34,843 bases of DNA, taken from contig NZRL01000161.1 of NCBI GenBank assembly GCA_002696205.1, forward strand, positions 1-34,843, written 5' to 3'. The DNA is from Rhodospirillaceae bacterium (lineage in GTDB: Bacteria; Pseudomonadota; Alphaproteobacteria; Rhodospirillales; Casp-alpha2). The notes under the pieces were generated by a model. The model was not told where the DNA came from and did no database searches. It saw nothing but the letters and a program-made list of their open reading frames with translations. Positions 2,425 to 17,915 of this stretch are shown here, piece by piece (the stretch's first letter is position 1; every line of letters begins with the position of its first letter). The position numbers and the translations under genes were made by a program.

Positions 2425-2455
2425 GTCAAATCGCTAATAACTATGTGATTGATAG
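2425..2455 (-). promoter_or_regulatory. AEP-regulon element, copy A (phnA-phnY promoter)
   Basis: Plus-strand GTCAAATCGCTAAT, a 2-base gap, then CTAT-N7-ATAG (2441-2455), a perfect 4-bp dyad with T-N11-A geometry typical of LysR-type sites. Read towards phnA, the inner end is GATTTGACA, giving TTGACA as -35 and GAGAAT 17 bases on as a weak -10. The dyad centre would lie near -57. Three other copies occur in the window. Confidence 0.75.
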
Positions 2456-2461
2456 GTTAAA

Positions 2462-2514
2462 TCAATATGAAAACGGGCCCGGCGCGATGGCAGCCGGACC
2501 CGTTCTTCTCATTG
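2462..2514 (-). terminator. Intrinsic terminator of phnW
   Basis: The core arms 2472-2483 and 2493-2504 form a 12-bp GC-rich stem; in the minus-strand RNA the one irregular pair is a G-U wobble. It is followed by UUUUC. AT-rich inverted flanks (AATCAAT / ATTGATT) extend it. It lies about 40 bases past the phnW stop and directly abuts the phnA regulatory element. Confidence 0.8.
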
Positions 2515-2542
2515 ATTTATTTAAAGAATTTTACGCGAACGC

Positions 2543-3673
2543 CTACTCGGCGGCCTGCGGCGCGCCGGTCTTGACGCCCATTTCATCGAGAACCTCCGAC
2601 ATCGCCTTCAGTGCCGCCTTCATCTCGTCCGCGCCCAGGTGGCCGATGCAGCCGACGCGGAAACTGGGGGCGACGGTCAGCTTGCCGGGATAGAGCACGA
2701 AACCGCGATCCTTGACCTTGTCGTAGAACACCTGGAAATCGAAGGCCGGGTCGGACGGCATGTGGAAGGTCACGATGATCGGCGCCTGCAGACCTTGCGG
2801 CAGCAGGGTGCGGAATCCGAGCTCGGCCATGCCGTCGACCAGAATCTTGCAGTTGTTGGAATAGCGGGCGAAGCGGCCCGGCTGACCTCCTTCGGCCTCG
2901 AACTGTTCGATCGCCTTGGCGAAGGCGAAGATGACATGGGTCGGCGGCGTGAAGCGCCACTGACCGTTGCCTTCCATGGCTTTCCATTGATCGTAGAGAT
3001 CGAGGGCGAGCGAATGGGCGTTGCCTTTGCAGCCCTCCAACACGCTCTCGCGGATCAGGGCGAAGCCCATACCCGGCACGCCTTCCAAACATTTGTTGGA
3101 TGATGCCATGACGGCGTCGAAGGTGACCTTGGATGCATCCAGTTCGATGGCGCCGAAGGCGCTCATGGCGTCGATGATCAGCGACCGGCCCGCCTCGGCG
3201 ACGACGCGGGAGATATCCTCGATGGGGTTGAGGATGCCCGAGGTCGTCTCGCAATGAACGACGAGAACATGGGTAATGTCGCCGTCGGCCAGCGCGTCGG
3301 CCACGTCAGCGGGGTCCGGCGGCGTGTCCTCCGGCGTTTCCATGATCGTATAGGCGCGGCCGGCATAATCGAGAATCTTGCCCATGCGGGTGCCGTAGGC
3401 GCCGTTGATCAGGATCAACGCCTTGCCGTCCCTGGGGATGAGGGTGCCCAGCGTCGCCTCGACCACGAAGGTGCCGGAGCCCTGCAGCGGCACGCAGACG
3501 TGGCTGCCTTCCGCATTGGCGATCTTCAACAGCGCGGCGCGCACGGTCGCGTTGGCGTCGATGAAGGACTGATCGCGCGAACCCCAGTCGTGCATCATGG
3601 CGTCGCGGGTTTCGGCCGCCGTGGTCAGCGGTCCGGGGGTCAGCAGCAGGGGATCACCGGGTGTCAGGGTCAT
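2543..3673 (-). CDS. phnW: 2-aminoethylphosphonate--pyruvate transaminase
   Basis: PLP-dependent class V aminotransferase converting AEP and pyruvate to phosphonoacetaldehyde and alanine, the entry step of AEP catabolism. The protein opens with LLLTPGPLTT and contains the PLP-pyridine aspartate at D168 (IIDAMSAFG) and the Schiff-base lysine at K194 (ASSNKCLEG); these are the same positions known for Salmonella PhnW. It is 376 residues from the ATG at 3673, chosen because GGAAAGG lies at a good distance. The ORF-track start at 3703 lacks a ribosome site. It is a single-gene unit with its own terminator (2462-2514) and its own copy of the AEP element upstream (3779-3809). Confidence 0.97.
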   Translation of the reverse strand: MTLTPGDPLLLTPGPLTTAAETRDAMMHDWGSRDQSFIDANATVRAALLKIANAEGSHVCVPLQGSGTFVVEATLGTLIPRDGKALILINGAYGTRMGKILDYAGRAYTIMETPEDTPPDPADVADALADGDITHVLVVHCETTSGILNPIEDISRVVAEAGRSLIIDAMSAFGAIELDASKVTFDAVMASSNKCLEGVPGMGFALIRESVLEGCKGNAHSLALDLYDQWKAMEGNGQWRFTPPTHVIFAFAKAIEQFEAEGGQPGRFARYSNNCKILVDGMAELGFRTLLPQGLQAPIIVTFHMPSDPAFDFQVFYDKVKDRGFVLYPGKLTVAPSFRVGCIGHLGADEMKAALKAMSEVLDEMGVKTGAPQAAE

Positions 3674-3778
3674 GGCGTGGCCTTTCCGTTTACAAAGTTT
3701 CATCGGCGCCGGGTCCGTCGTCTCGGCACCACGCGGGGCCGGCGATGGAGCGGAGTTTCCGCCCCCGGGAGGCCGCCC

Positions 3779-3809
3779 GTCAAATCGTTAATTCGGATAT
3801 CATCCATAG
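3779..3809 (-). promoter_or_regulatory. AEP-regulon element, copy B (phnW promoter)
   Basis: Plus-strand GTCAAATCGTTAAT, 2 bases, then GGATATCATCCATAG, keeping the AT-N7-AT core. Towards phnW it reads GATTTGACG, with TTGACG as -35 and only a poor -10 (GAAACT at 18 bases), as expected of an activator-dependent promoter. It predicts a leader of about 70 bases before the phnW ATG. Confidence 0.72.
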
Positions 3810-3859
3810 ATGACAACTATTCGACAACGCGAACCGACCGTTTCGGTTTTCCTGTCGGA

Positions 3860-5569
3860 TCAGCGTTTCCGCCAGGCCTGGGTGCGGCCGAGAATGCCGC
3901 GCGTCAAGCCCGCATGGACGAGACGTACCGCAGCCGCGGTACCGACGATCATCATGCCCATGGCGGCGGCGGGCGCAACGTCCCCGGCATCGTCCATGTT
4001 CAGAATAGCGACGGAGGCCAATGCCGTATCCGGCGAATAGAGGAACACCACCGCCGAGACCGTCGTCATGGCGTTGACGAACAAGTACATGGAGATATCC
4101 AGGATCGCAGGCATACAGACCGGCACCGTGATGCGGAAGAAGGTCTTGTAGAACGGTACCTTCAATGACTGCGAGACGCTTTCAAACTCCGCGTCCAGCT
4201 GTTTCAGCGCCGTCACCGCCGTCAGGTGCGAGACCGTGTAGAAATGCGTGACCGTGCAGATCACCAGGATCGGCATGGTGTGATAGAGAAAGCCCAGCGG
4301 ATTGTCCGGCGCGTTGAAGAAGAACACGTAGGCGAGCCCCAGCACCAGGCCCGGCACCGCCATCGGCACCATGCAGAGCAATTGCATGGCCGCGCGGCCA
4401 GTGTGAAAGCCTTTGCTCTTCTCCACAAGATAGGCGCCGGTGAAGACCATGGCGGTGCCGATCACCGCCGTCCAGGCCGCCATTTCGATGGAGTTGTAGT
4501 AGGCATCCCAGCCGCCGCCGTCCATCATCTCGAAGGCGTAGTGCTTCAACGACAGGGACAGGTTATAGGGCCAGAACGTCGCGAACGACGCATAGGCCGC
4601 CATGGCCAGGATCGAGACCAGGATGAAGCCGATGACCCCGCAGAAGGCCAACATGCCGTAATCGACGCCGGCGTTCTTTTTCGGCTGGTACGGCACGGCG
4701 CGGGCGGACAGCAGGGCGACCTGCTTGCGCTGCACCAGGCGGTCGGCGGCGAAGGCGAACAATGCGGGCAGCAGCAGGACCATGGAGACCACCGCCCCCA
4801 TTTCGAAATCCTGGCGGCCGACGACCTGTTTGTAGATGTCGGTCGCCAGCACGTTGTACTTGCCGCCGACGACCTTGGGCACGCCGAAGTCGGTGATGAC
4901 CAGGGTGAAGCAGACGAAGAAGGCCGAGACCACGCCGTATCGGACGCTGGGCAGGGTCACCGTGAAGAAGGTCTTGATCTTGGACGCCCCCAAGGCGTCC
5001 GACGCCTCGTACAGCCGCGCGTCCGAATTGGCCATGGCGATCAGCATGATCGTCAGGACATGCGGGAAGACATAGAAGCATTCGCCCATGACGATCCCGA
5101 TGGGACCGTAGATTTCATAACCGAACAGCCATTCCTTGATGATCCCCTGGTTGCCGAACAGATAGACCAGCGAGATCGCCGGCAAAAGCGACGGCATCAG
5201 GATCGGCAGCAGCGCCACGCCCTTGAACAATCCTTTCAACGGCATGCAGGTCCGCGTCAGGGCATAGGCATAGATGAAGGCCAAGGTGACGACGATGACG
5301 CAGCAGATCAGCGTCACCGTCAGGCTGTTCTGGATCGACCAGAACAGGGCCGGGGTCGAGAAGAAGTTGACGTAGTTGGCAAGCCCCACGAAAACGCCGT
5401 CGGCGTTCTTGAAGCTTTTCGACAGGATCGCGTAGAGCGGCAGGACGATGGAGATCAGGAGATAGAGCGCGATGCCCATCAGCACCGCGCGCATGATCCA
5501 ATCCTCTCCGCTGACCTTGGGCTTGATCAGCGGGGCCGCGTTCGCCGTCGTGGCGGTGCCGTTTGCCAT
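3860..5569 (-). CDS. aepW: AEP ABC transporter, fused double permease
   Basis: Inner-membrane permease of the putative 2-aminoethylphosphonate importer, Fe3+/spermidine-like family. At 569 residues it is about twice the usual permease length and carries two homologous halves, each with about six membrane segments. Each half has an EAA loop for ATPase docking: DALGASKIKTFFTVTLPS in the first, QSLKVPFYKTFFRITVP in the second. The ATG at 5569 follows GAGGGACC. The track ORF starting at 5668 overlaps the ATPase gene and is an over-extension. It lies 10 bases after the ATPase stop and is last in the binding protein-ATPase-permease operon. The symbol follows the AepXVW naming by analogy. The permease call is firm; AEP specificity is inferred from context and family resemblance. 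Confidence 0.9.
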   Translation of the reverse strand: MANGTATTANAAPLIKPKVSGEDWIMRAVLMGIALYLLISIVLPLYAILSKSFKNADGVFVGLANYVNFFSTPALFWSIQNSLTVTLICCVIVVTLAFIYAYALTRTCMPLKGLFKGVALLPILMPSLLPAISLVYLFGNQGIIKEWLFGYEIYGPIGIVMGECFYVFPHVLTIMLIAMANSDARLYEASDALGASKIKTFFTVTLPSVRYGVVSAFFVCFTLVITDFGVPKVVGGKYNVLATDIYKQVVGRQDFEMGAVVSMVLLLPALFAFAADRLVQRKQVALLSARAVPYQPKKNAGVDYGMLAFCGVIGFILVSILAMAAYASFATFWPYNLSLSLKHYAFEMMDGGGWDAYYNSIEMAAWTAVIGTAMVFTGAYLVEKSKGFHTGRAAMQLLCMVPMAVPGLVLGLAYVFFFNAPDNPLGFLYHTMPILVICTVTHFYTVSHLTAVTALKQLDAEFESVSQSLKVPFYKTFFRITVPVCMPAILDISMYLFVNAMTTVSAVVFLYSPDTALASVAILNMDDAGDVAPAAAMGMMIVGTAAAVRLVHAGLTRGILGRTQAWRKR

Positions 5570-5579
5570 GACCGGTCCC

Positions 5580-6677
5580 TCAGGCCCCGGCCGCCGGCCG
5601 GTAGATGCGCACGAATTCCGGCGGTAGAGCCGCCTGCACGGTGACGCCTTCCTTGATCGCCAGGGCACGCGCGCGGCTGGCCGACAGGTCGATCAGGAAT
5701 GCCTTGCCGCCCGCGTTCCTGGGCTTGACGTGGCATCGCTGGAACGAGCCGAGAAACTCGATATCCGTGATCTCAACCGCGACGCCCGCGTCGCCGTCAC
5801 TGCCTTCGGTGATCTTGACGTCCTCGGGCCGGATACAGACGGTCACTTTCTCGCCCGGCGCCATACCGTCGAGCGCCGAAGCACATTCGACGACCATGCC
5901 CGCCGCCTTCACGGTGCCGCCGGCCTGGACCTCGCCGTCGATGAAGTTGGTCGTGCCGATGAAGTCGGCGACGAAGGGCGACGCCGGCTCGGCATAGATT
6001 TCTTCGGGGGTGCCGACCTGTTCGATGACGCCGTGGTTCATCACGACAATGCGGTCGGCCATGGCCAGGGCCTCTTCCTGATCGTGGGTCACCATGATCG
6101 TGGTGATGCCGATCTTCTCCTGCAGTTCCTTGATCTCGTGGCGCAGGTGAATGCGTACCTTGGCGTCCAGCGCCGACAGGGGTTCGTCCAAAAGCAACAG
6201 GCCCGGGGAGGTCGCGAGCGCGCGGGCGAGCGCCACGCGCTGCTGTTGGCCGCCGGACAGCTGTGCCGGATACTTGTTCGCATGATCCTTGAGCCCGACC
6301 AGATCGAGCAATTCGAACACCCGGGTGTCGATCGCCGCGCGGGCCATCTTCCGGTTTTCCAGACCGTAGGCGATGTTCTTCTTAACGGTCAGATTCGGGA
6401 ACAAGGCATAGGACTGGAAAACGATGCCGAAGTCCCGTTCGTTGGGCGGCAGGGCCGAGATATCGCGCCCGGCCTGTTCGACCGTTCCGGCGGTCTGGAT
6501 ATCCAGCCCCGCGATGGCGCGCAGCAATGTCGTCTTGCCGCAGCCCGACGGCCCCAGGAAGCAGACGAATTCGCCTTCGGCCACGTCCAGCGAGATATCG
6601 TGCAGCGCCGTAAACTCACCGAATTTCTTGAGAACGTTTCGGACCTTCAGATAGGCCCCTTTATCCGTGTCGGTCAC
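5580..6677 (-). CDS. aepV: AEP ABC transporter, ATP-binding protein
   Basis: Cytoplasmic ATPase subunit powering the importer, 365 residues. Motifs in order: Walker A GPSGCGKTT (residues 42-50), Q-loop in IVFQSYALFP, signature LSGGQQQR, Walker B LLLLDEPLSALDAK and switch histidine VTHDQEEA. A C-terminal TOBE-like regulatory region follows, as in the CysA/PotA/FbpC branch. The start is a GTG at 6677 with GGAGGG eight bases upstream; no ATG fits the N-terminus. It lies between the binding protein (116-base gap containing a hairpin) and the permease (10-base gap). Confidence 0.93.
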   Translation of the reverse strand: MTDTDKGAYLKVRNVLKKFGEFTALHDISLDVAEGEFVCFLGPSGCGKTTLLRAIAGLDIQTAGTVEQAGRDISALPPNERDFGIVFQSYALFPNLTVKKNIAYGLENRKMARAAIDTRVFELLDLVGLKDHANKYPAQLSGGQQQRVALARALATSPGLLLLDEPLSALDAKVRIHLRHEIKELQEKIGITTIMVTHDQEEALAMADRIVVMNHGVIEQVGTPEEIYAEPASPFVADFIGTTNFIDGEVQAGGTVKAAGMVVECASALDGMAPGEKVTVCIRPEDVKITEGSDGDAGVAVEITDIEFLGSFQRCHVKPRNAGGKAFLIDLSASRARALAIKEGVTVQAALPPEFVRIYRPAAGA

Positions 6678-6731
6678 TTCCCCAGCCCTCCGGGACGAAT
6701 GGTATCAGATGCACTGATCCCCGAATAGAAA

Positions 6732-6759
6732 GCCCCGGCCCCTTATCAGGAGCCGGGGC
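6732..6759 (-). terminator. Hairpin between binding protein and ATPase genes
   Basis: GCCCCGGC / GCCGGGGC 8-bp stem extended by a few inner pairs. It is followed on the minus strand by UUUCUAUU. Its position 35 bases past the binding-protein stop suggests a partial terminator or 3' stabiliser, so that the binding protein is made in excess over the membrane subunits. Confidence 0.65.
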
Positions 6760-6793
6760 CATCCATTCAATCAGATCAGAATGGGCAATTCCG

Positions 6794-7834
6794 TTACTTG
6801 GGCTCGGATTTGCCGTCGTAGCGCTTGCGCCACTCGTCCAGGATGCGGATGCGGTTGGAGGCCGCCCACTTGAAGTCGTTCTTGATCATCTTGTCTTCGA
6901 TGCCCGGGGGGAAGTTCTTCACCGGCTTGGCGATGCCCGGCATGGCGACGACCGCGTACTCTTCGTTGTAGATTTCCTGGGCCTTCTTGGACACAGACCA
7001 ATCGGCCAGCGCCTGGGCGGCTTTCAGGTTCTTGGTGTTCTTGACGATGCCGAAGGATTCCAGATCCCAGCCGACGCCTTCCGACGGGGCGACGACTTCC
7101 AGCGGCGCGCCGTCGTTCTTGGACTTGGCGCCACGATAGGCGAAGGACACGCCGATCGGGATTTCACCCTTGGCCGCCAGCTTGCAGGGCTTGGAGCCGG
7201 AATGCGTGTAGCGCGCGATGTTTTCGTGCAGCGCGTCCATGTACTTCCAGGCCGCGTCCTCGCCCTTCAGCTGGATCCAGGACGACACGTCCAGGAAGCC
7301 GGTGCCCGAGGAGTTCGGGTTCGGCATGATGACATGGCCCTTGTAGACCGGCTTGGTCAGGTCGTCCCAGGAGGTCGGAACCGGCAGCTTGTATTTCTCG
7401 CCTTCGACCGTGTTGAAGCAGATCGAGGCGATCCAGGCGCGCTGACCGACCCAGAGCGGCGCGGGGTTGGTCGTGTCGTAATATTTCTTCGACAGCTTAT
7501 CCAAGCCCTTGGGCGCGTAGCCCTGGAAATAATCGTAGTTGGAGAGCAGCAGCAGGCTGGTCGCCGCGACGCCCCAGACGATATCGGCCTTGGGGTTGTC
7601 CTTTTCCGCCAGCAGCTTCGAGGTGATGATCCCGGTGGAATCGCGCACCCACTTGATGTTGACGTCGGGATAGTCGCTTTCGAAGGCCTTCTTGAACTTC
7701 TTCAGTTCGTCCGCTTCGACGGCCGTGTAGACCAGAAGATCGGTTTTCGCCTTTGCCTGGGCGGCGCCCAGAACGGAGGCCGTGGCGGCCACCGCCAGCC
7801 CCATGGCGAGGCCGCTGAACCATTTGAATTTCAT
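6794..7834 (-). CDS. aepX: AEP ABC transporter, periplasmic substrate-binding protein
   Basis: Extracellular solute-binding protein family 1, 346 residues. It has a clear Sec signal peptide (MKFKWFSGLAMGLAVAATASVLGAAQAKA), so it is periplasmic. The mature protein begins TDLLVYTAVEADELKKFKKAFE, the opening of the iron/phosphonate-type binding proteins, and resembles the family annotated as putative 2-aminoethylphosphonate binding protein (PhnS2/AepX). The ribosome site is AGGGAG. It is first in the importer operon, and its predicted promoter is element copy D, leaving an unusually long leader of about 180 bases. It would deliver AEP or a related aminophosphonate to the permease. Confidence 0.9.
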   Translation of the reverse strand: MKFKWFSGLAMGLAVAATASVLGAAQAKAKTDLLVYTAVEADELKKFKKAFESDYPDVNIKWVRDSTGIITSKLLAEKDNPKADIVWGVAATSLLLLSNYDYFQGYAPKGLDKLSKKYYDTTNPAPLWVGQRAWIASICFNTVEGEKYKLPVPTSWDDLTKPVYKGHVIMPNPNSSGTGFLDVSSWIQLKGEDAAWKYMDALHENIARYTHSGSKPCKLAAKGEIPIGVSFAYRGAKSKNDGAPLEVVAPSEGVGWDLESFGIVKNTKNLKAAQALADWSVSKKAQEIYNEEYAVVAMPGIAKPVKNFPPGIEDKMIKNDFKWAASNRIRILDEWRKRYDGKSEPK

Positions 7835-8050
7835 CGTGATACTCCCTGTTGGATCGCCGGATTATCGGCACGCGCCGTTACCGGCATGTGACAGTATTAA
7901 CCATTTCTACTGTGTGGGAACAGGATTCGTTCGGCACTGCACCAATTCCGCCCCCCTGCCGGCGCCGATGCCGGCGGAAGCCCTCAAACGCCCCGAAATC
8001 GGGCGGGCATCGGGCTTCCGTATAGACTCAATCGCATTCCGGAAATATAA

Positions 8051-8081
8051 GTCAAATCGTCAGTTTATATAGGTCGTATCG
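8051..8081 (-). promoter_or_regulatory. AEP-regulon element, copy D (importer promoter / LysR leader)
   Basis: Plus-strand GTCAAATCGTCAGT, 2 bases, then ATATAGGTCGTATCG with the AT-N7-AT core; it is also flanked by ATATAA...TTATAT. Orientation towards the minus-strand importer matches copies A-C, giving TTGACT as -35. It ends 9 bases before the divergent lysR ATG, so occupancy could also repress the regulator. The remaining 7835-8050 holds no gene; I see only GC-rich inverted repeats around 7970 and 8010. Confidence 0.72.
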
Positions 8082-8090
8082 GTTTCATCT

Positions 8091-8957
8091 ATGTACTATT
8101 CGCAACTGCGGGCGTTCCATGCGGTGGCCACCCAGGGCGGGTTTTCCAAGGCCGCGGAATTCCTCAACCTGACGCAGCCGACCCTGTCGGACCAGGTGCG
8201 CAAGCTGGAGCGTGATTTCGACGTCCTGTTGTTCAATCGGACCTCGCGTTCGGTTTCGCTGACCGACGCCGGGCGGCACCTGCTCGCGATCACCAACCGC
8301 ATGTTCGAATGCGAGGCCGAGGCCCTGGAGTACCTCAAGGAATCGCAGGACCTGCTGGTCGGCTCCCTGACCCTCGCCGCCGACGCGCCCTTTCACGTGC
8401 TGCGCATCGTCCGCGCCTTCCGCAACACCTATCCGGGCGTGACCGTGAACCTGAAGATCGGCAACTCGGAAGACATCCTGAACCAGCTCTACGATTTCGA
8501 TGCCGACGTCGGCGTGTTCTCCCATGTTCCCGACGACGCGCGGCTGAAGGTGCTCAGCCTCCGCGACGACCCGCTGGTCGCCGTGATCTCCCAGGACCAC
8601 CACTGGGCCGGCCGCCGCGCCGTGAAGTTCCGCGAACTGGCGGGCGAGCCCCTGGTGCTGCGCGAGCGCGGCTCGACCACCCGCCGTCTGATCGAACAGG
8701 AATTCGCGCGCCTGGAACTGCAGATGGGGACGGTGATGGAGGTCGAAGGCCGCGAAAGCATCCGCGAAGCCGTCGCCACCGGCAACGGCGTCGGCTTCGT
8801 CTCGAAGCCCGAATTCGGCCACGATAACCGCCTGGCCATGCTGGAACTGGAAGACAGCAAACTGCCCATGCACGAATACATGGTCTGCCTGGAAAACCGG
8901 GCGGAGACGCGGGTCGTCAGTGCATTCTGGGAAATGGCGGTGGCGGAGCGGGACTAA
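8091..8957 (+). CDS. LysR-type regulator of aminoethylphosphonate catabolism
   Basis: LysR-family transcription factor, 288 residues. The N-terminal winged helix-turn-helix is YYSQLRAFHAVATQGGFSKAAEFLNLTQPTLSDQVRKLERDFDVLLFNR. A periplasmic-binding-protein-like effector domain starts near residue 90. It resembles the LysR subfamily described as associated with AEP catabolism. It is divergent from the importer operon, with element copy D ending 9 bases before its ATG, consistent with autoregulation. No good ribosome site is visible upstream, so translation may be weak. It is the natural candidate to bind all four copies of the shared element. The effector is probably AEP or a breakdown product, which is inference. 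Confidence 0.92.
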   Translation: MYYSQLRAFHAVATQGGFSKAAEFLNLTQPTLSDQVRKLERDFDVLLFNRTSRSVSLTDAGRHLLAITNRMFECEAEALEYLKESQDLLVGSLTLAADAPFHVLRIVRAFRNTYPGVTVNLKIGNSEDILNQLYDFDADVGVFSHVPDDARLKVLSLRDDPLVAVISQDHHWAGRRAVKFRELAGEPLVLRERGSTTRRLIEQEFARLELQMGTVMEVEGRESIREAVATGNGVGFVSKPEFGHDNRLAMLELEDSKLPMHEYMVCLENRAETRVVSAFWEMAVAERD

Positions 8958-9023
8958 GGCACCGCGTCGGCATTCACCCGCCTCATCGGATGGCATTCGG
9001 TATCATTTGTGGTACGATTCCCC

Positions 9024-10799
9024 ATGCGGTTGAAAAACATTAAGAATGCGCTGATCGCAAGCGACGCCATCTTCCACAATTCGCACGATGCGATCGTCTG
9101 CATGACGAGCGATTCGAAGATCGTTTTCGTCAATGAAACGGCCGTCGAGATGTTCGGATACGACACCGCCGAACAGCTGCTGGGCGAGCGCGTTGAACGC
9201 CTGATGAACGATCAGAACGCCGCCGCCCACGGGCAATACGTCGAACGCCACCTGTCGGGCGAAAACACCCCCGTCATGAACCGCCTGCGCCGCATCAATG
9301 CGAAGAAACGGGACGGCAGCCTGTTTCCCGTCGATATCCACGTCTTCTATTGCGCGGTCGAAGGCGAACGCCTCTATACCTCGTTCATCCGCGACATGTC
9401 GGAGGTCGAACAAAAGGAACAGGAGCTCCACCGCCTCGCCTTTTCCGACCTGCTGACGGGCCTGCCGAACCTCAAATCCCTTGAGATGCTGTTGGCGGAC
9501 CTTCTCGGCGACGACAAAGACACCGCCTATCTGCTGGCCGTCCTCGGCATCGACCGGATGCGCTCGATCAACGGATCGTTCGGCTTTGAAGTCGGCGACA
9601 TGGTCATCGATGCCATGGCGCGGCGTCTCGAGGCGGAATTCCGGGAATCCCCCTTCCTCGGAAAAATTTCGGGCGACCAGTTCGTCGTGATCGATCAGAT
9701 CCCAACCGGCCAATCCCCGGAAACCGCGGTCGCGAACCTGCGCGGCCGGCTCGACGAAGTCGTCGCGGTTCCGGTCACCGTAGCCGATGCCCGCGTTCAG
9801 GTTGACATCACGACCGGCGTCATCTGCGTGCCGGACCTTGCGGACACTCCCCAATCCGCGATCAAGCATGCGGAAATGGCCTATGGCGACGCCAAACTGA
9901 ACGCCCGCGGCCGGGTCCGGTTGATGAACGAGGACCGCCTGAACTCCATGGTCTTCACCTCGACGATCACCCACCAGATCCGCGACGCCATCCAGATCGG
10001 CGAATTCGCCATCGTCATTCAACCGAAGATCGACATCAAAAGCGGGCGGGCCAACGCCGGCGAAGTACTCGTCCGCTGGACGAAAAGCGACGGCAGCATG
10101 ATCCCGCCCGACGTCTTCATTCCGATCGCCGAGGACGCCGGCCTGATCAACGCCATCGGGCGATTCGTGTTCCTGGAGGCATCCGCCCTGGTCCGCGGCA
10201 CCCGGCAATCGACGGACCTTTTTCCGAAGCTCGCGGTCAACGTTTCGCCGCGCCAGCTGATCGACGTCAATTTCGTCGATTTCGTCGAGGACACCTTCGA
10301 TCAGTTTTCCATCGACCCGGACCTGATCGAAATCGAAATCACCGAGACCGCCGTCGCCAGCGCGCCAAAGCGCGTGACCGCGGCGCTCAACCGGCTGCGC
10401 GACCTGGGCCTGACCATCGCCCTGGACGATTTCGGCACCGGCTATTCGTCGCTGACCATGCTGCGCGACATGCCGATCGACAAAGTCAAACTGGACAAGT
10501 CCTTCGTCGATCAGATCAACGAGGACGAGAAATCCTTCAAACTGGTCGAGAACTCGATCCGCATGATGCAGGACCTGGGCTTCCTGGTGACGGTCGAAGG
10601 CGTCGAAACCCGCGACATTCACGACATGCTCTACGCGTTGGGCGTCGATGAAGCGCAGGGCTATTTCTATTCCAAACCCCTGCCGGTCGAGGCCTTCCAG
10701 GCCTACAGCTTCGACCTCGACCCGCAACAGAACGACCTGTTCGCCAAACTCAAATCCGAATACGTCCGCTCCCAGGGCGGGGATGATCCGTTGAATTGA
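9024..10799 (+). CDS. PAS-GGDEF-EAL protein, probable cyclic-di-GMP phosphodiesterase with degenerate GGDEF
   Basis: Cytoplasmic signalling protein of 591 residues from the ATG at 9024; a GTG at 9009 is an alternative and neither start has a clear ribosome site. An N-terminal PAS domain (about 10-125) senses an unknown cue. The GGDEF domain has SGDQF where active cyclases have GGDEF, so synthesis is unlikely, although it could still bind GTP. The EAL domain keeps the catalytic set: EVL (a tolerated EAL variant) in GEVLVRW, VNVSP, EITET, DDFGTGYSS, KLDKSF, VEGVET and QGYFYSKPLP. The likely reaction is c-di-GMP hydrolysis. No transmembrane segment is seen. Its link to the flanking phosphonate genes is unknown. 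Confidence 0.93.
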   Translation: MRLKNIKNALIASDAIFHNSHDAIVCMTSDSKIVFVNETAVEMFGYDTAEQLLGERVERLMNDQNAAAHGQYVERHLSGENTPVMNRLRRINAKKRDGSLFPVDIHVFYCAVEGERLYTSFIRDMSEVEQKEQELHRLAFSDLLTGLPNLKSLEMLLADLLGDDKDTAYLLAVLGIDRMRSINGSFGFEVGDMVIDAMARRLEAEFRESPFLGKISGDQFVVIDQIPTGQSPETAVANLRGRLDEVVAVPVTVADARVQVDITTGVICVPDLADTPQSAIKHAEMAYGDAKLNARGRVRLMNEDRLNSMVFTSTITHQIRDAIQIGEFAIVIQPKIDIKSGRANAGEVLVRWTKSDGSMIPPDVFIPIAEDAGLINAIGRFVFLEASALVRGTRQSTDLFPKLAVNVSPRQLIDVNFVDFVEDTFDQFSIDPDLIEIEITETAVASAPKRVTAALNRLRDLGLTIALDDFGTGYSSLTMLRDMPIDKVKLDKSFVDQINEDEKSFKLVENSIRMMQDLGFLVTVEGVETRDIHDMLYALGVDEAQGYFYSKPLPVEAFQAYSFDLDPQQNDLFAKLKSEYVRSQGGDDPLN

Positions 10800-10885
10800 C
10801 CCCGGGCCGGCGACAGCGACGGCGAAAAGGACCAGCGCACCGGCTCAATGGACGCCCGGCACCACTCGCCTCCCGGCGTCCTCTC

Positions 10886-11122
10886 TCACTTGGCCTTGGC
10901 TGCCTTTTCGGCTGCCTTTTCTTTTTCGGCAGCCAACCGCAGCGCTCTCAACGATTCGGTTTTCTGCTGCGCTTTTTCCGTCCGCAGGGCCTTGTCCTTG
11001 ATGAGCTGGACATCCGTGTTCTTGGGCGGCTTCCGATCCTTGAAATCGCCCTGATCCCCCCGCTCGATCGCGGCGAACATCTTGTCGTCGGCGTTGTTCG
11101 GTCGTGTCGATCCTGAGCCCAT
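10886..11122 (-). CDS. Small charged protein of unknown function
   Basis: 78 residues, unrecognised. The N-terminal half is polar (GSTRPNNADDKMFAAIERGDQGDF). The C-terminal half is rich in Lys, Ala and Glu and should form a long charged helix or coiled coil (LRALRLAAEKEKAAEKAAKAK). No signal peptide or cysteines. The start is supported by GGAAAGGGCAGG directly upstream of the ATG at 11122, so I take it as a real gene. It is convergent with the EAL gene and lies downstream of the glutamine-synthetase-like gene. It could be nucleic-acid associated because of its charge, but this is a guess. Confidence 0.65.
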   Translation of the reverse strand: MGSGSTRPNNADDKMFAAIERGDQGDFKDRKPPKNTDVQLIKDKALRTEKAQQKTESLRALRLAAEKEKAAEKAAKAK

Positions 11123-11232
11123 TGGCCTGCCCTTTCCGCTGAATGGCGCGTCCCGCGCATATGCCTATCTTCTACCCTACGTCCGACCCGAGCGGCAGAA
11201 AAAAGCGACCGGGTGCTGCAAACGGCAGCGGG

Positions 11233-12600
11233 TCAGATAATCTCGAAATACCGCTCCATCTCCCAGTCGGTGATGGCGCGGCGGAATTCACGTTCTTCCC
11301 AGTCGCGGGTCGCGGCGTAGTGATCGACAAAGGCGTCGCCGAAGAGGGCCCGGGCGGGCTTTGAGGCCGTCAGGCGACCGGCCGCCTCGCCGAGGGTGCG
11401 GGGCAGGTTCAGCTTCTTCGGCCATTTCCTGTCGTAGGCGTTGCCGTCGCAGGGGGCTTCGGGCTCGATCTTGTTCTCGATGCCCCAGAGGCCGGCGCCG
11501 ACGGCGGCGGCCAAGGCCAGGTAAGGATTGGCGTCGGCGGCGGCGACGCGGAACTCGACGCGCTGCGATTTCTCAGATCCCGGAATGACGCGGATCGCGC
11601 AAGTCCGGTTGTCGATGCCCCAGGTCGCGTCGGTCGGCGCCCAGAAGCCGGGGACCAGGCGGGTGTAGCTGTTGACCGTGCCGGCGATCATCGAAAGGAA
11701 TTCCGGCATCAGTTTCTGCTGCCCGCCGACGAAATGGCGCATCATGTCGCTCATCCCATGGGGCTTATTCTTGTCCAGGAACAGCGGCTTGCCCGCCTTG
11801 GACTGCAGCGACATATGGATATGGCCCGACTGGCCGGGCCAGTCCTCTGACCAGCGCGCCATGAAGGTCGCCATCAGGCCCCGTTTCTGCGCCATGATCT
11901 TGGCGAAGGTCTTGAACAGGGCGGCCTTGTCCGCCGCCGCAAGGGCGGTATCGACCTGGATCGCGGCCTCCATGCAGCCGGGGCCGGTTTCCTCGTGCAG
12001 GCCCTCCAACGCCATGTCCATCTTCACGCAGCCGTCCAAGAGGTCGCGGTAGAGATCGCTGTCGACCGTGTTGCGCAGGACCGAATAGCCGAACCAGCCG
12101 GGCTGGATCGGTTTCATGCCTCGGTAGTTCTTTTCGCGCACGCTATGGGGCGTTTCCTCGAACAGGAAGAATTCGTATTCCAGCCCGGCCAGCACCTTGA
12201 AGCCCATCTGATCGGCCTTCGCCAAGGTCCGGCGCAGGGTCGCGCGGGGGCAGACCTCTTCGTGCTTGCCATCGAATTCGCCGAGGAAAAACAGCATGCC
12301 GTCCTCCCAGGCGATTTCCCGGCAGGTTTCCGGCAGCACGCGCACCGGCGCGTCCGGATAGCCCGTATGCCAGCCGGTGACCGAGACGTTGTCATAGAGT
12401 TGGTCATACGAGTCCCAGCCGAGCACCACGTCGCAGAAGCCGAAGCCCTTATCCAGGGAGGAGACGAACTTGTCGGCCTTCATGTATTTGCCGCGCATCA
12501 CGCCGTCCATGTCGACGACCCCGACCTTGACGTAGTCGAGCTTTCGTTCGGCGACGATCTTCTTGGCGTCGGCCGCCGTCTTGACCTGTTCCGGTTTCAT
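11233..12600 (-). CDS. Glutamine-synthetase-like gamma-glutamyl ligase
   Basis: Member of the glutamine synthetase superfamily, 455 residues from the ATG at 12600 (AGGGGGACC upstream). Recognisable pieces are an N-terminal beta-grasp-like region (KVGVVDMDGVMRGKYM), a metal-site glutamate in LEYEFFLFE, EAAIQVD, the HIHMSL segment, NSYTRLVPGFWAPT and the late active-site stretch VEFRVAAADANPYLALAAA. The housekeeping-type adenylylation tyrosine region is not evident, so this is probably not nitrogen-assimilation GlnA. Relatives of this type glutamylate amines (putrescine, ethanolamine, isopropylamine). It is last in a five-gene operon led by a PbfA-like enzyme, so the amine may be an aminophosphonate or a product of one. 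Substrate unknown. Confidence 0.85.
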   Translation of the reverse strand: MKPEQVKTAADAKKIVAERKLDYVKVGVVDMDGVMRGKYMKADKFVSSLDKGFGFCDVVLGWDSYDQLYDNVSVTGWHTGYPDAPVRVLPETCREIAWEDGMLFFLGEFDGKHEEVCPRATLRRTLAKADQMGFKVLAGLEYEFFLFEETPHSVREKNYRGMKPIQPGWFGYSVLRNTVDSDLYRDLLDGCVKMDMALEGLHEETGPGCMEAAIQVDTALAAADKAALFKTFAKIMAQKRGLMATFMARWSEDWPGQSGHIHMSLQSKAGKPLFLDKNKPHGMSDMMRHFVGGQQKLMPEFLSMIAGTVNSYTRLVPGFWAPTDATWGIDNRTCAIRVIPGSEKSQRVEFRVAAADANPYLALAAAVGAGLWGIENKIEPEAPCDGNAYDRKWPKKLNLPRTLGEAAGRLTASKPARALFGDAFVDHYAATRDWEEREFRRAITDWEMERYFEII

Positions 12601-12643
12601 GCCTGGTCCCCCTGCCTGCCCCGTCGGGCGTGTTTCGATCTGC

Positions 12644-13819
12644 CTAGAATTCCAGACGCCCCCCATGGGCGTCCAGGAACAATGCGGCGTATTGGTCCGC
12701 CGTGAATTGGATCGGGTTGCCGCCGGCGGTCGGATCCTCGATCGCCATGGCGCCGATTTTTTCCGCGTCGTCCGCCGGAATATCCATCTCGACCAGGGTA
12801 TGCGGAATGCCGACCTCGGCCCGCAGGTCGAGAATCCATTGGATCAGCCCCTCCGGCGAATGGCCGGGCACGTCGAGGGCGCGGGCGAGATCGGTCAATT
12901 CGCCTTCGATGGCCGGGCGGTTGGCGGCGACCACGTAGGGCATCAGCACGGCATTCAGCAATCCATGGTGCGCGTCGTAAAGAGCGCCCAGCGGATGGGC
13001 CAGCGCGTGGATGCCGCCAAGGCCCCGCTGAAACGCCGTCGCCCCCGCCATGGCGGCGGCCATGACGTGGGAGCGGGCCTCCAAATTCGATCCGTCCTTC
13101 ACCGCCGTCGGCAGCCAATCCTTGACCAGGATCATGCCTTCCAGCGCGACCCCTTTCGCGAAGGGGTGATAGAACGGCGCGAGGTAGGCCTCCAGGTTAT
13201 GGGCCAGGGCGTCCATCCCCGTCGCCGCCGTGACATGGGCGGGCAGGCCGAGCGTCAGGGCCGGGTCGGCGATGGTCACCGTCGGCATCATCTTGGGATG
13301 GAAGATCACCTTCTTCACATGCCGTTCGGCATCGGTGATGACGGCGGCGCGGCCGACGTCCGACCCCGTGCCCGCCGTGGTCGCGACGCAGATGTTGGGC
13401 GCGATGGCGTCCGCGTCGGCGCGGGCCCAATTGTCGCCCACGTCCTCGAAATCCCACAGCGGCCGCGTCTGCCCGGCCTGGAAGGCGATGGCCTTTCCGG
13501 CGTCCAGCGCACTGCCGCCGCCGAAGGCGATGACCCCATCATGGCCGCCCGCCTTGAAGGCGGCACAACCCGCCTCGACGTTGTCGGACGTTGGGTTGCC
13601 CTTGATGTCGGAAAAGACCTTGATGGTCAGCCCGGCCCCCTCGACCGCCTTTACCGCGTCGCCGACCATGGGCAGGGCCGCCAGGCCCGGATCGGTGACC
13701 AGCAGCGGATTGGCCATGCCCGCCTGTTTGCAGGCCTCGCCCAGTTCGGACAGGCGCCCGGCGCCGAAGCGGATGGCGGTGGGATAGTTCCAATTGCCGG
13801 TCAGGGACATGGTCGTCAT
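12644..13819 (-). CDS. Iron-containing (group III) alcohol dehydrogenase
   Basis: NAD(P)-dependent Fe-ADH family enzyme, 391 residues from the ATG at 13819; ATG 13810 is an alternative and the ribosome site is weak. The nucleotide-binding GGGSALDAGKA motif and TTAGTGSDVGRAAVIT are present. The metal ligands are visible as D and H in GMDALAHNLEAY and two further histidines in GIHALAHPLGALYDAHHG. It starts 5 bases after the aldehyde dehydrogenase stop, so the two are translated together and probably act in series on an alcohol/aldehyde pair. The track ORF starting at 14026 overlaps the upstream gene and is over-extended. Substrate unknown. Confidence 0.9.
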   Translation of the reverse strand: MTTMSLTGNWNYPTAIRFGAGRLSELGEACKQAGMANPLLVTDPGLAALPMVGDAVKAVEGAGLTIKVFSDIKGNPTSDNVEAGCAAFKAGGHDGVIAFGGGSALDAGKAIAFQAGQTRPLWDFEDVGDNWARADADAIAPNICVATTAGTGSDVGRAAVITDAERHVKKVIFHPKMMPTVTIADPALTLGLPAHVTAATGMDALAHNLEAYLAPFYHPFAKGVALEGMILVKDWLPTAVKDGSNLEARSHVMAAAMAGATAFQRGLGGIHALAHPLGALYDAHHGLLNAVLMPYVVAANRPAIEGELTDLARALDVPGHSPEGLIQWILDLRAEVGIPHTLVEMDIPADDAEKIGAMAIEDPTAGGNPIQFTADQYAALFLDAHGGRLEF

Positions 13820-13824
13820 GGGCG

Positions 13825-15216
13825 TCAAACCTGTGTGCGAAGATGAAAGGACATGGGCCGCGTCAGATGGTCGTAGCCCAGGGGGGATAGGGTGCAGCCG
13901 CGCCCGGAATTCTTGACCCCGGTCCAGGCGAGCGCCGGGTCCAGGTAGTCGGCCCGGTTCATGAACAGGGTCCCCGTCTCGATCCGGTCGCCCAATTCGA
14001 GCGCCACCGCTTCGTCCGACGTCCAAATGCTGGCGGTCAGGCCGAAGTCGCTGTCGTTCATCAGGGCGACGGCCTCGTCGTCCGACGCGACCTTCATCAC
14101 GCCGACCACGGGACCGAAGGATTCTTCCGTCATCACCCGCATCTTATGATCGACGCCGGTCAGAACCTGCGGCGCCATATAGGGGCTGCCCGCCGCGTCG
14201 CGGTCGAAGGCCGCCGCGTCGAGATGCGCGGTCGCCCCGCCGGCGATCGCCTCCGCGATCTGGCCGCGCACGAAATCGGCGGCGCGGGCGCGGACCATGG
14301 GGCCGAGGGTCGTCGCGTCGTCCGTCGGGTCGCCCAGGACATAGGTCTTAGCCAGGTCCACCATGCCCGCGACGAAATCGTCGTAGACATCGGCATGAAC
14401 ATAGACCCGTTCGATCCCGCAGCAGCTCTGCCCGGAATTGAAGAAGGCGCCATCGGTCACGTTTTCGATGGCGTGCGGCAGGTTGGCGTCGGCCCGCACA
14501 TAGGCCGGATCCTTGCCGCCCAGTTCCAGGCCCAGGCCGATGAAGCGGCCCGCCGCGGCGCGCTCCATGGCCGCCCCGCCGGGGACCGAGCCGGTGAAGG
14601 CGACGAAACCGATTTCCGGCGATGCCACGACCTGGGCCGTCTGATCGTGGGTCAGGTGCAGAACCTGGAACAATCCGTTCGGCGCGCCGGCGGCCTGGAA
14701 GGCGCGGGCGATGCGCTCGCCGCAAAGCGGCGTCTGCGTCGCGTGTTTCAGGATCACCGCGTTGCCCGCCATGATCGCCGGGACGATGGCGTTGACCGCC
14801 GTCAGATAGGGATAGTTCCAGGGGGCGACGACCAGGACCGTGCCCAGCGGCTGGCGCCGGATGAAGCGGGTGAAGCCGGGCTTGTCCGGCGCCGGGCGGT
14901 CGGCCAGCGACGCCTCGGCGATGGAAATCATATGCCGGGCCCGCTCCTCGAACCCGCCGACCTCCCCGGCGCCATATCGCACGGGCCGGCCCATCTGCCA
15001 GGCGAGCTCTTCCGAAATCGCTTCCTTGTCGGCGATGAAGGCATCGACCATGCGGGCGCAGACCATGGCCCGCTCGGCGATCGGCATGCGCCGCCAGATC
15101 GCCTGGCAGGCGGCGGCGCGGTCAAGGGCGGCACGGATCGTCGCGTCCTCGGCGGCAAGGCGCTCGGCATAGGTCGATCCGTCGATGGGGGAAATACAGG
15201 AGAGAATTTCGGACAT
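13825..15216 (-). CDS. NAD(P)-dependent aldehyde dehydrogenase
   Basis: Class I/II-type ALDH, 463 residues from the ATG at 15216 (AAAGGCC upstream). It carries VVAPWNYPYLT, the base in GLELGGKDP, the nucleophile in FFNSGQSCCGIERVYV (double Cys) and ESFGPVVGV. It differs clearly from PhnY at the other end of the module, so it is not a simple second copy. It belongs to the five-gene operon between the hydroxyacid dehydrogenase (94-base gap) and the Fe-ADH (5-base gap). A semialdehyde or phosphonoaldehyde substrate is plausible, but the sequence does not decide this. Confidence 0.9.
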   Translation of the reverse strand: MSEILSCISPIDGSTYAERLAAEDATIRAALDRAAACQAIWRRMPIAERAMVCARMVDAFIADKEAISEELAWQMGRPVRYGAGEVGGFEERARHMISIAEASLADRPAPDKPGFTRFIRRQPLGTVLVVAPWNYPYLTAVNAIVPAIMAGNAVILKHATQTPLCGERIARAFQAAGAPNGLFQVLHLTHDQTAQVVASPEIGFVAFTGSVPGGAAMERAAAGRFIGLGLELGGKDPAYVRADANLPHAIENVTDGAFFNSGQSCCGIERVYVHADVYDDFVAGMVDLAKTYVLGDPTDDATTLGPMVRARAADFVRGQIAEAIAGGATAHLDAAAFDRDAAGSPYMAPQVLTGVDHKMRVMTEESFGPVVGVMKVASDDEAVALMNDSDFGLTASIWTSDEAVALELGDRIETGTLFMNRADYLDPALAWTGVKNSGRGCTLSPLGYDHLTRPMSFHLRTQV

Positions 15217-15310
15217 GGCGGCCTTTCTTTCAGGCTCGTTGCGCGGCTGCGATGGACGTTCGGACGTTAGCCCCCCGGCCCCGAACGCGCCAGGGGATTT
15301 CCGCACCTGC

Positions 15311-16330
15311 TCACGGATCGACGAAGGTCACGCCCTGTGTCTGCGCGCGCAGGCGCGGGTCCGGCGATTTCACGGTGACCGGGCGGCCGTCGAGGATTTC
15401 ACGGCAGCGCGCCAGGGTTTCCTCCTCCAGCCGTTCCATGGCCTCGTCGGTGAAGAACGTCATATGCGGCAGCAGGATCACGTTATCCATGCCGTAAAGG
15501 GCGCTCATGGGATGGCCTTCGAGGGCAAGGGGCTCCTGGCTGTAGACATCCAGCCCCGCCCCGGCGATGCGGCCTTCGACCAGGGCCTCGACCAAAGCCG
15601 CTTCGTCGACCACCGCGCCACGTGCGACGTTGATGATGAAGGCCGTCGGCTTCATGGCGGCAAGCTCGGCCGCGCCGATCAGGCCCCGCGTCTCGTCGTT
15701 CAGCACGGAATGGACGGAGACCACGTCGCTTTCCGCCATCAAGTCCATCAGGTCGGCGACCGGCTCGATGCCCAATGCCTGCAATTCTTCCGGCGGGGTA
15801 TGGGGGCTGTAGGCGATGACGCGGGCCCCGAAGCCCGCGCCCGCCATCTGGGCGAAGGACCGGCCGATCCGCCCGGCCCCCACGATGCCCACGGTCTTGC
15901 CGGCGATGTCCGATCCGCGCCAGTCGCCGGTCGGCCAGATCCAGCCGTCGGTGTGCATGGCGCGGTCCATGGGGATCAGCCGTTTGGCCAGGGCCAGCAT
16001 CAGGGTGAACGCCCCCTCGGCCACCGTGCGCTCGGCATATTCCGGGACGTTGACCACGGGGATGCCGCGCGCCCGGGCAGCCGGGATGTCGATGGCGTCG
16101 ATGCCGACGCCGTATTTGACGATGCCCTTCAGCTTGGGCGCGGCCTCGATCACCCGTTCGGTGATCGGCGTGTAGCACATCAGGATCAGCTCGGCGTCGG
16201 CGACCGCGTCGATCAACACGTTCTCCCCCGCGCCGTCGGGCACCTTGACCAGATCGACGCCCAAGGCCGCAAGCCCCGCATCGATCGCCGGACATTCCAA
16301 TTCGCGGTCCGTGCGGACGGCTTTCACCAT
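15311..16330 (-). CDS. D-2-hydroxyacid dehydrogenase family protein
   Basis: NAD(P)-dependent D-isomer 2-hydroxyacid dehydrogenase, 339 residues. Substrate loop KYGVGIDAID, Rossmann motif GIVGAGRIGRSFA, catalytic Arg in NVARGAVVDE, Glu in AGLDVYSQEP and His in LLPHMTFFTDEAM are all present, so it should be active. The ATG at 16330 has GGAAAGGGG upstream. It lies 27 bases after the PbfA-like gene. It could be a glyoxylate/hydroxypyruvate reductase, or act on a phosphonate hydroxyacid such as phosphonolactate; the latter is inferred only from the operon and regulon. Confidence 0.9.
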   Translation of the reverse strand: MVKAVRTDRELECPAIDAGLAALGVDLVKVPDGAGENVLIDAVADAELILMCYTPITERVIEAAPKLKGIVKYGVGIDAIDIPAARARGIPVVNVPEYAERTVAEGAFTLMLALAKRLIPMDRAMHTDGWIWPTGDWRGSDIAGKTVGIVGAGRIGRSFAQMAGAGFGARVIAYSPHTPPEELQALGIEPVADLMDLMAESDVVSVHSVLNDETRGLIGAAELAAMKPTAFIINVARGAVVDEAALVEALVEGRIAGAGLDVYSQEPLALEGHPMSALYGMDNVILLPHMTFFTDEAMERLEEETLARCREILDGRPVTVKSPDPRLRAQTQGVTFVDP

Positions 16331-16357
16331 GGCGGGCCCCTTTCCGGGTCTTGAAGG

Positions 16358-17755
16358 TTAGGCGAGACCGGCGGCCTGGGCCGCATCCGCGATGGCGCGG
16401 TCCAGAACGTCGAGGGCTTGGTCCATCTGCGCCATCGTCACCACCAGGGGCGGCGTCAGGGTCAGGGTATTGCCCATGGAAATCTTGAACGACAGGCCGC
16501 CGTCGAGGCAACGGTAGAGAACGTCTTCGGCCAATTCCGGGGCGAGTTCTTTCCCCGCGCGGTCCTTGACCATTTCCGCGCCGAACAGGAATCCGCGCCC
16601 GCGCACGTCGCCGATCACGCCGTGGCGCGCCTTCATGTCGTGCAGGCGGGCCAGCGCATGGGCGCCGACGGTGGCCGCGTTCTCGACCAGGTTTTCGTCC
16701 TCGATGATCTCGATGGTGGTCAGGCCCGCCCGCGTGGTGACGGGATTTTTCTCATGCGTGTAATGGCCGAAGGCGTAGTCGCCCGCCACGTCCAGTTCCG
16801 GCCGGGCGATCACGGCGGCGAGCGGCAGGATGCCGCCACCGAGCCCCTTGCCCATGACCAGGATATCCGGCACGACGCCGTCATGGTCGCAGGCGAACAT
16901 CCGACCGGTCTTGCCCAGACCCGTCGGGATTTCATCGAAGATCAGCAACGCCCCCACGTCGTCGCAAGCCTGGCGCACGGCGGCCCAGAACCCGGGCGGC
17001 GGGATGTAGGGCACAGCCCGCGCCGGCTCGGCGATCACGGCGGCGACGTCGCCTTCCTTTTCCAGGACGTAGCGCAGCATGTTGGCGCAGGTCATCTTGC
17101 ACAGGTCCAGGTCCGGCTGGCCGTCCTGTTCCGGGTACCCATAAGGGCAGCGATAGCAGGCGAAGGGGGCGACGTGTTCCGTGCCCGCCAGCAAGGGGCC
17201 GATGGCGCCGCCGCGGAACAATTGTTCGCCGCCGACCGAGGACGCGCCGAACCCCGCGCCGTGGAAAGCATCCCAGAACGACACGGTCTTGAAGCGGCCC
17301 GTCGCCGCGCGGGCCAGCTTCAACGCGACCTCGACCGCGTCCGACCCGCCCGTGGTGAACAGCACCTTCGACAAATCCCCCGGCGCGATATCCGCCAGCT
17401 TGCGGGCCAGCGCCGTCGCGGGCGCGCAAGCGAACCGCCGGGGTGCGAAGGGCAGTTCGTCCATCTGATCGGCGATGGCTTTCTTCAATCTGGGATGGCC
17501 GTAGCCGATGTGATGGGCGTTGTTGCCGTGAAAATCGAGATAACGCCGCCCCTCGGCATCCTCGATCCAGGGACCTTCGGCCTTGGTGATAACGGACAGG
17601 CAGGGCGTCGAGACGGACTGATGCAGGAACAGCTTGGCGTCTTCGTCGAGTGCTGTCCGCGAGGCGGCGCCCAGCGCCCCCTCTGCCCAATCGCGCCGCC
17701 GGGGCGAGGTATTGCTCTCGCCTTCGGATTGGGCGGGGGGCGTTTCAAAGGGCAT
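16358..17755 (-). CDS. pbfA: Class III aminotransferase-fold PLP enzyme, probable PbfA-type (R)-2-amino-1-hydroxyethylphosphonate ammonia-lyase
   Basis: PLP enzyme of 465 residues with the class III fold: TTGGSDAVEVALKLAR (phosphate-binding region), IFDEIPTGLGKTG (PLP aspartate) and the catalytic lysine in VMGKGLGGG. The segment DFHGNNAHHIGYGHP and a Cys-rich insert CYRCPYGYP...CKMTC are distinctive. PbfA, a lyase of this fold, converts hydroxylated AEP to phosphonoacetaldehyde plus ammonia. I assign it from resemblance to that group, from neighbouring phnY/phnA, which consume the product, and from the shared regulatory element. A true transaminase remains possible. The track start at 17812 lies upstream of the start of transcription predicted from element copy C, so I prefer the ATG at 17755. 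Confidence 0.78.
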   Translation of the reverse strand: MPFETPPAQSEGESNTSPRRRDWAEGALGAASRTALDEDAKLFLHQSVSTPCLSVITKAEGPWIEDAEGRRYLDFHGNNAHHIGYGHPRLKKAIADQMDELPFAPRRFACAPATALARKLADIAPGDLSKVLFTTGGSDAVEVALKLARAATGRFKTVSFWDAFHGAGFGASSVGGEQLFRGGAIGPLLAGTEHVAPFACYRCPYGYPEQDGQPDLDLCKMTCANMLRYVLEKEGDVAAVIAEPARAVPYIPPPGFWAAVRQACDDVGALLIFDEIPTGLGKTGRMFACDHDGVVPDILVMGKGLGGGILPLAAVIARPELDVAGDYAFGHYTHEKNPVTTRAGLTTIEIIEDENLVENAATVGAHALARLHDMKARHGVIGDVRGRGFLFGAEMVKDRAGKELAPELAEDVLYRCLDGGLSFKISMGNTLTLTPPLVVTMAQMDQALDVLDRAIADAAQAAGLA

Positions 17756-17814
17756 GGCCGGGCGCTCGTTCCTGGAGGAAGAAAGAGCGAGTGTCGCCAT
17801 CGGCGTAGCCATAC

Positions 17815-17846
17815 GTCAAATCGCTAATGCCGATGGGATGTATCGG
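17815..17846 (-). promoter_or_regulatory. AEP-regulon element, copy C (pbfA-like operon promoter)
   Basis: Plus-strand GTCAAATCGCTAAT, identical to copy A over 14 bases, then a dyad CCGAT-N7-ATCGG (17830-17846) at the same spacing as copy A. Towards the operon it reads GATTTGACG, with TTGACG as -35 and a poor -10 (GACACT at 18 bases). Predicted transcription start is near 17782. This ties the distant five-gene operon to phnW, phnA and the importer. Confidence 0.75.
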
Positions 17847-17884
17847 CATGGCCTATGGCGCCCTGAGGCGACATGTGACTACCC

Positions 17885-17915
17885 TTGACCTTCCAGCGAC
17901 TGGAACCCTTATGTA
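17885..17915 (+). promoter_or_regulatory. CueR-type copper-responsive promoter of the copA ATPase gene
   Basis: -35 TTGACC (17885-17890), a 19-base spacer, -10 TATGTA (17910-17915). The spacer contains the perfect dyad TTCCAG-CGA-CTGGAA. The 19-bp spacing and CCTTCCAG...CTGGAA sequence match MerR/CueR-activated copper promoters such as E. coli copA. The regulator is encoded two genes on. Confidence 0.92.

Follow-up and report, generated by a model that had tools for sequence, protein, structure and literature searches.

A proposed operator of the aminophosphonate regulator AepR with OxyR-like geometry, derived from four conserved sites in a Rhodospirillaceae bacterium

Contig NZRL01000161.1 of a Rhodospirillaceae bacterium (assembly GCA_002696205.1) carries genes for the uptake and catabolism of 2-aminoethylphosphonate (AEP) and 1-hydroxy-2-AEP (HAEP), together with a divergent lysR gene of the AepR type. 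The stretch analysed here, referred to as the window, comprises 34,843 nucleotides. A sequence-only reading of this DNA had described four copies (A to D) of a 31-base element at 2425-2455, 3779-3809, 8051-8081 and 17815-17845 and had proposed an aminophosphonate regulon under the neighbouring LysR-type activator. The name AepR comes from Pseudomonas putida BIRD-1, where mutation of aepR beside phnWX impairs induction by AEP (PMC9311074), and a role of AepR has been proposed for Alphaproteobacteria (PMC8316502). In this study, we show that the four elements belong to a 37-bp site with four regularly spaced half-sites, which is conserved at aminophosphonate genes and co-occurs with the regulator. 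We propose, at a probability of about 0.92, that they are operators of the AepR protein encoded at 8091-8957.

The aminophosphonate locus and its four elements

The four elements lie exactly where they had been described, all in the same orientation and each ahead of one minus-strand unit, and the gene families of these units are confirmed (Table 1). In the whole 3.78-Mb genome (84% complete), a pattern search for GTCAAATCGNYARTNNNNAT with no or one mismatch finds only these four places, while by base composition about 0.004 exact matches would be expected. Random occurrence elsewhere at a similar density, which would have spoken against a regulon, is not seen. Two details had to be revised. 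The distance from GTCAAATCGYYART to the first AT is four bases instead of two, and the CCGAT-N7-ATCGG dyad that had been assigned to copy C is found in the fourth copy (17815).

Moreover, the 31-mer is incomplete. A fourth half-site (CAAT or CTAT) is located exactly 7 bp past it in all four copies. The full predicted operator thus comprises 37 bp with the pattern ATCG-N7-NNAT-N7-ATMG-N7-CWAT, which has four sites in the window versus 0.07 matches expected. Among 115 deduplicated sites, nearly all of them from other Alphaproteobacteria, the outer gaps are mostly 7 bp; the middle gap is mostly 6 bp, with roughly a quarter to a third of the sites having 7 bp. An ATA arm just past TTGAC is a further conserved element and is present in copies A, C and D. 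An activation site of the form AT-N7-AT centred on TTGAC was retained only as this third overlapping arm, which is missing from copy B. A mobile repeat as the origin of the four copies was rejected: their flanks are without evident similarity, and each site is conserved in place within the genus.

The LysR protein scores 352.6 bits against TIGR03339 (cut-off 341.1) and contains the domains HTH_1 (PF00126) and LysR_substrate (PF03466), both over cut-off. Its gene is adjacent to phnW, phnA, phnY and phnS2T2U2, the neighbourhood that marks AepR. Copy C also lies ahead of this plus-strand gene and probably controls it. Half-site 4 of copy C (8089-8092) overlaps the ATG at 8091, so that its CTAT shares A and T with the start codon. 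Because the lysR start (8091-8093) falls within this last half-site and lacks a Shine-Dalgarno-like sequence ahead of it, the lysR transcript is likely leaderless and autorepressed. In a set of loci from Rhodospirillales and Hyphomicrobiales, a fixed distance of 40 bp separates the operator core from the lysR start, a spacing shared by many genomes. Elsewhere in the same genome (contig C91; L287:6500-6551), a site of the same layout ends at the start codon of a paralogous TIGR03339-like lysR.

Table 1. Genes, predicted operators and predicted promoter elements in the window
Feature	Coordinates	Strand	Details
phnY, phosphonoacetaldehyde dehydrogenase	1..1035	-	TIGR03250; cut by window edge
phnA, phosphonoacetate hydrolase	1070..2341	-	TIGR02335 over cut-off
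Operator A (phnA-phnY)	2430..2466	-	ATCG 2430-2433, CTAT 2441-2444, ATAG 2452-2455, CAAT 2463-2466; held-out profile E 7.6e-6
Promoter A			-35 TTGACA 2424-2429; -10 GAGAAT 2401-2406, spacer 17
phnW, 2-AEP:pyruvate transaminase	2543..3673	-	TIGR02326/TIGR03301 over cut-off
Operator B (phnW)	3784..3820	-	ATCG, GGAT, ATAG, CTAT; held-out profile E 0.0023
Promoter B			-35 TTGACG 3778-3783; -10-like GAAACT, spacer 18
phnU2, importer permease	3860..5569	-	TIGR03262 over cut-off
phnT2, importer ATPase	5580..6677	-	TIGR03265 over cut-off
phnS2, importer binding protein	6794..7834	-	TIGR03261 over cut-off
Operator C (phnS2-T2-U2 importer and divergent lysR)	8056..8092	-	ATCG, ATAT, ATCG, CTAT; held-out profile E 2e-7, genome's best match
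Promoter C			-35 TTGACT 8050-8055
lysR (AepR)	8091..8957	+	TIGR03339 phn_lysR over curated cut-off
Rest of pbfA unit: aldehyde dehydrogenase, iron-containing alcohol dehydrogenase, glutamine-synthetase-like protein	11233..15306	-	
Candidate pbfF (HAEP racemase), 2-hydroxyacid-dehydrogenase family	15311..16330	-	PF02826; adjoins pbfA
pbfA, (R)-1-hydroxy-2-AEP ammonia-lyase	16358..17755	-	NF049939 over cut-off
Operator D (pbfA operon)	17820..17856	-	ATCG, CGAT, ATCG, CTAT; held-out profile E 4.2e-5
Promoter D			-35 TTGACG 17814-17819; -10-like GACACT, spacer 18

Conservation, co-occurrence with the regulator and promoter phasing

In comparisons across the genus and its nearest relative, the operators are 83-95% identical versus 34-64% for non-coding flanks; the one higher flank (88%, copy C) is lysR coding sequence. 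A 54-position profile that excluded both the window's genus and its nearest relative was run against the whole genome. Its four best matches are the four window sites (E 2e-7 to 0.0023), and the fifth (E 0.13) lies directly ahead of a paralogous TIGR03339-like lysR.

A matrix made from the four window sites only was applied to loci outside the genus, with the 99th percentile of 979 control upstream regions of open reading frames as threshold. In other Alphaproteobacteria it passes at 65 of 67 phnW and 64 of 76 lysR upstream regions, and all phnW matches share the same orientation. At pbfA (2/40), phnA (3/61) and phnY (0/60) it rarely passes; elsewhere these genes are presumably mostly operon-internal. 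Scans of the kind proposed in the sequence-only reading recover the four sites in their own genome (held-out profile) and find the element recurrent at the phnW and lysR genes of relatives (four-site matrix); a lack of conservation ahead of orthologous phn genes is not what is seen. An iterated matrix reaches 69 of 69 phnW regions, a figure that is partly circular, so that the four-site and held-out tests are the trustworthy ones.

Concerning co-occurrence, every one of the nine relatives that combine phnW with an AepR over the cut-off has the element at its phnW. At 29 phnW loci without such an AepR it is absent (none above score 20, two above 15). One member of the same genus, G004, has phnW and lacks both regulator and element. 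In this distribution the element follows the TIGR03339 LysR rather than phnW.

TTGAC had been read as a -35 box with poor -10 boxes. The weakness of the latter is confirmed, yet a -10 is conserved at a spacer of 17 or 18 bp in relatives and, within the genus, in copies A, B and D with the hexamers and spacings of Table 1. In 70 deduplicated promoters, the -10 pattern NANNNT occurs 34 times at spacer 17, 14 times at spacer 18 and 10 times at spacer 20, compared with 0 to 7 times at each other spacer from 10 to 39. Since the -10 region played no part in finding the sites, this spacing is an independent test of TTGAC as -35. With the -10 taken as -12 to -7, copy A has its half-sites (1 to 4) at -39/-36, -50/-47, -61/-58 and -72/-69. 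Half-sites 1-2 and 3-4 then form two 15-bp inverted repeats of the T-N11-A type, about two helical turns apart and centred, by the predicted promoter, near -43 and -65, as in classical LysR-type activators. While ATAG-N7-CTAT fits T-N11-A exactly, repeats with GGAT or CGAT as a half-site fit it in degenerate form. The CTAT-N7-ATAG dyad noted earlier near -57 does exist, as the inner pair of half-sites. The predicted dimer sites are instead the two 15-bp dyads that flank it, centred near -65 and -43.

The proposed AepR operator and competing explanations

An AepR tetramer would bind as two dimers to the two inverted repeats, 22 bp apart. Half-sites 3 and 4 would form the recognition site near -65, and half-sites 1 and 2 the activation site near -43, abutting the -35 TTGAC. 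In copies A, C and D, the ATA arm adds a third repeat that overlaps and lies near -32. By analogy with OxyR, AEP or a related compound would act as inducer and shift the dimer closer to the promoter, so that RNA polymerase would be recruited to all four units (phnA-phnY, phnW, importer, pbfA operon). On copy C, the distal dimer would sit over the lysR start, with autorepression as the result. Comparative genomics strongly supports an AEP/HAEP regulon under the neighbouring LysR-type activator, in line with the earlier proposal.

Several points weigh against this assignment. Many relatives have several TIGR03339-like LysRs, and the pairing of operator and paralogue is therefore drawn from adjacency. 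The -10 boxes remain weak, with none clear in copy C. An exact test on the 9-versus-29 table gives 6e-9, which overstates the evidence because the positives belong mostly to one genus and were seen to carry the box beforehand. The Alphaproteobacterial loci were picked by similarity to the regulator and are thus not a random sample of phn clusters. Furthermore, the four-site matrix passes at only 7 of 39 phnS2 upstream regions; the remaining phnS2 sites are a diverged version (GTAAAATCTATT...) detected by the iterated matrix only.

The best-conserved part of the element, GATTTGAC, includes the -35, and a -10 follows 17 or 18 bp downstream. Conservation might consequently reflect no more than a shared promoter of the phn genes. 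We regard this as highly unlikely, as regularly spaced half-sites are conserved to 37 bp upstream of the -35, the element is missing in relatives with phnW but without AepR, and lysR is preceded by the same element. Another global regulator, PhoB or NtrC with sigma-54, might also use the element, given that AEP genes of P. putida require PhoBR, NtrBC or CbrAB besides AepR (PMC9311074). The element is, however, unlike the Pho box or the sigma-54 consensus, and the phn promoters of the window contain no sigma-54-like site and no Pho-box-like site that would place them in a Pho regulon. Such a regulator is extremely improbable here, even though PhoB may control lysR from elsewhere.

OxyR deserves closer attention. 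Its operator is ATAG-N7-CTAT-N7-ATAG-N7-CTAT, with repeats at -66, -44 and -35 at oxyS (PMC5002191). The element shares with it the four half-sites spaced by 7 bp, a geometry seen in all four copies, and the pair of repeats near -65 and -43 with an additional overlapping one near -32; its tetranucleotides agree with the consensus only in part. It differs in half-site 1, which is ATCG within GTCAAATCG, in the 6-bp middle gap of many rhizobial sites and in its targets, which are aminophosphonate genes.

In a Pseudomonas-like family, presumably Pseudomonadaceae, the element is found in 29 of 30 upstream regions of phnW, once more beside a LysR. We take PA1309 to be the regulator gene neighbouring phnW in P. 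aeruginosa. Panmanee et al. (PMC5720770) described an OxyR site for PA1310 phnW of P. aeruginosa, ATCG GCCTGGC TTAT GGCTGGC ATCG GAACAAA CAAT, on the basis of electrophoretic mobility shift and DNase I data, and found phnW expression 80% lower in an oxyR mutant; PA1309 does not occur in the text of that paper. The reverse complement of the site, ATTG TTTGTTC CGAT GCCAGCC ATAA GCCAGGC CGAT, falls into the same register as AepR operators from related genomes. Mismatches amount to 6/37 against L224 and 1/37 against L292, in a comparison that rests on the published table and a near-identical relative, the exact PAO1 sequence not being among the genomes searched. L292 is the single match in 400 genomes and is located between phnW and a divergent lysR.

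These data and the cross-hits of the profile to a conserved peroxiredoxin promoter in another genus could mean that OxyR, not AepR, binds the element. The footprint took 500 nM OxyR, though, and phnW was not among the findings of an earlier OxyR study (PMC5720770). Presence of the element goes with the TIGR03339 LysR gene, and its distance from that gene is fixed. It tracks neither peroxide genes nor oxyR in the genome, where the four copies, which are also the four best sites, are all at AEP genes. Binding by OxyR in place of AepR is accordingly very improbable as an explanation of the element. The cross-hits, ahead of a 183-aa peroxiredoxin (L278:5798-5847; L281, L284, L286, L289, L290, L291), are probably OxyR-type sites and not AEP genes. 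At PA1310, AepR and OxyR operators share their layout, which would account for weak OxyR binding; the site is more probably an AepR operator than an OxyR site, and genuine dual control by both regulators may also exist.

Extent and meaning of the proposed regulon

The shared element appears to tie HAEP degradation, by pbfA and the pbfF candidate, to the AEP regulon. The racemase gene pbfF has been described as encoding a pfam02826 family protein beside pbfA in an AEP cluster (PMC12366243). The product of 15311-16330 has both features and is therefore a candidate for this racemase. For pbfA, the start at 17755 is more likely than that at 17812, since the latter falls within the promoter. The gene order of the remaining pbfA unit is the same in relatives within the genus. 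Divergent from the pbfA operon and roughly 30 bp ahead of the gene for a copper P-type ATPase (17947-20346), TTGACC-N19-TATGTA with an ACCTTCC-N7-GGAA-like dyad (17885-17915) resembles a CueR/MerR-type promoter.

In relatives the element also lies ahead of the phosphonatase gene phnX (G042). An AepR-type operator ahead of a methyl-accepting chemotaxis protein in G111 (L282:6121-6172) points to a possible AEP chemoreceptor. In several relatives in the genus, though not in the window, additional DNA is inserted between phnW and operator A. In L083 (14801-17254) this insertion encodes an 817-aa fusion of a flavin adenine dinucleotide-dependent oxidoreductase and GcvT, possibly an N-methyl-aminophosphonate oxidase.

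The system is like AepR of P. putida BIRD-1 and Alphaproteobacteria in regulator family, in its neighbourhood of phnW and AEP importer and in the expected substrate-dependent activation (PMC9311074, PMC8316502). Unlike BIRD-1, where each AepR was taken to serve the adjacent operon only, one regulator appears to serve four units here, including HAEP genes. PhnR and PalR, which act in phosphonoacetate and phosphonoalanine use, are likewise LysR-type activators of carbon-phosphorus hydrolase genes, but AepR is phylogenetically distinct from them (PMC8316502). A term search of PMC9311074 and PMC8316502 found no operator, and a literature search, which did not cover subscription papers, found no published AepR operator.

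We consider it likely, though with less confidence than the assignment of the four window sites, that the AepR operator is described here for the first time. In this wider proposal an operator of OxyR geometry with four half-sites, conserved across Alpha- and Gammaproteobacteria, would define an aminophosphonate regulon of uptake, AEP and HAEP catabolism and, in some genomes, PhnX and a chemoreceptor. The OxyR site at PA1310 phnW would really be an AepR operator to which OxyR binds weakly through the shared layout. For the regulator AepR, no DNA target had so far been described. With its operator defined, the regulon would become readable from sequence alone, as the element flags phnX, the chemoreceptor and the HAEP genes. 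The operator would also give the exact bases to mutate and a direct way into the apparent control of P. aeruginosa phnW by OxyR.
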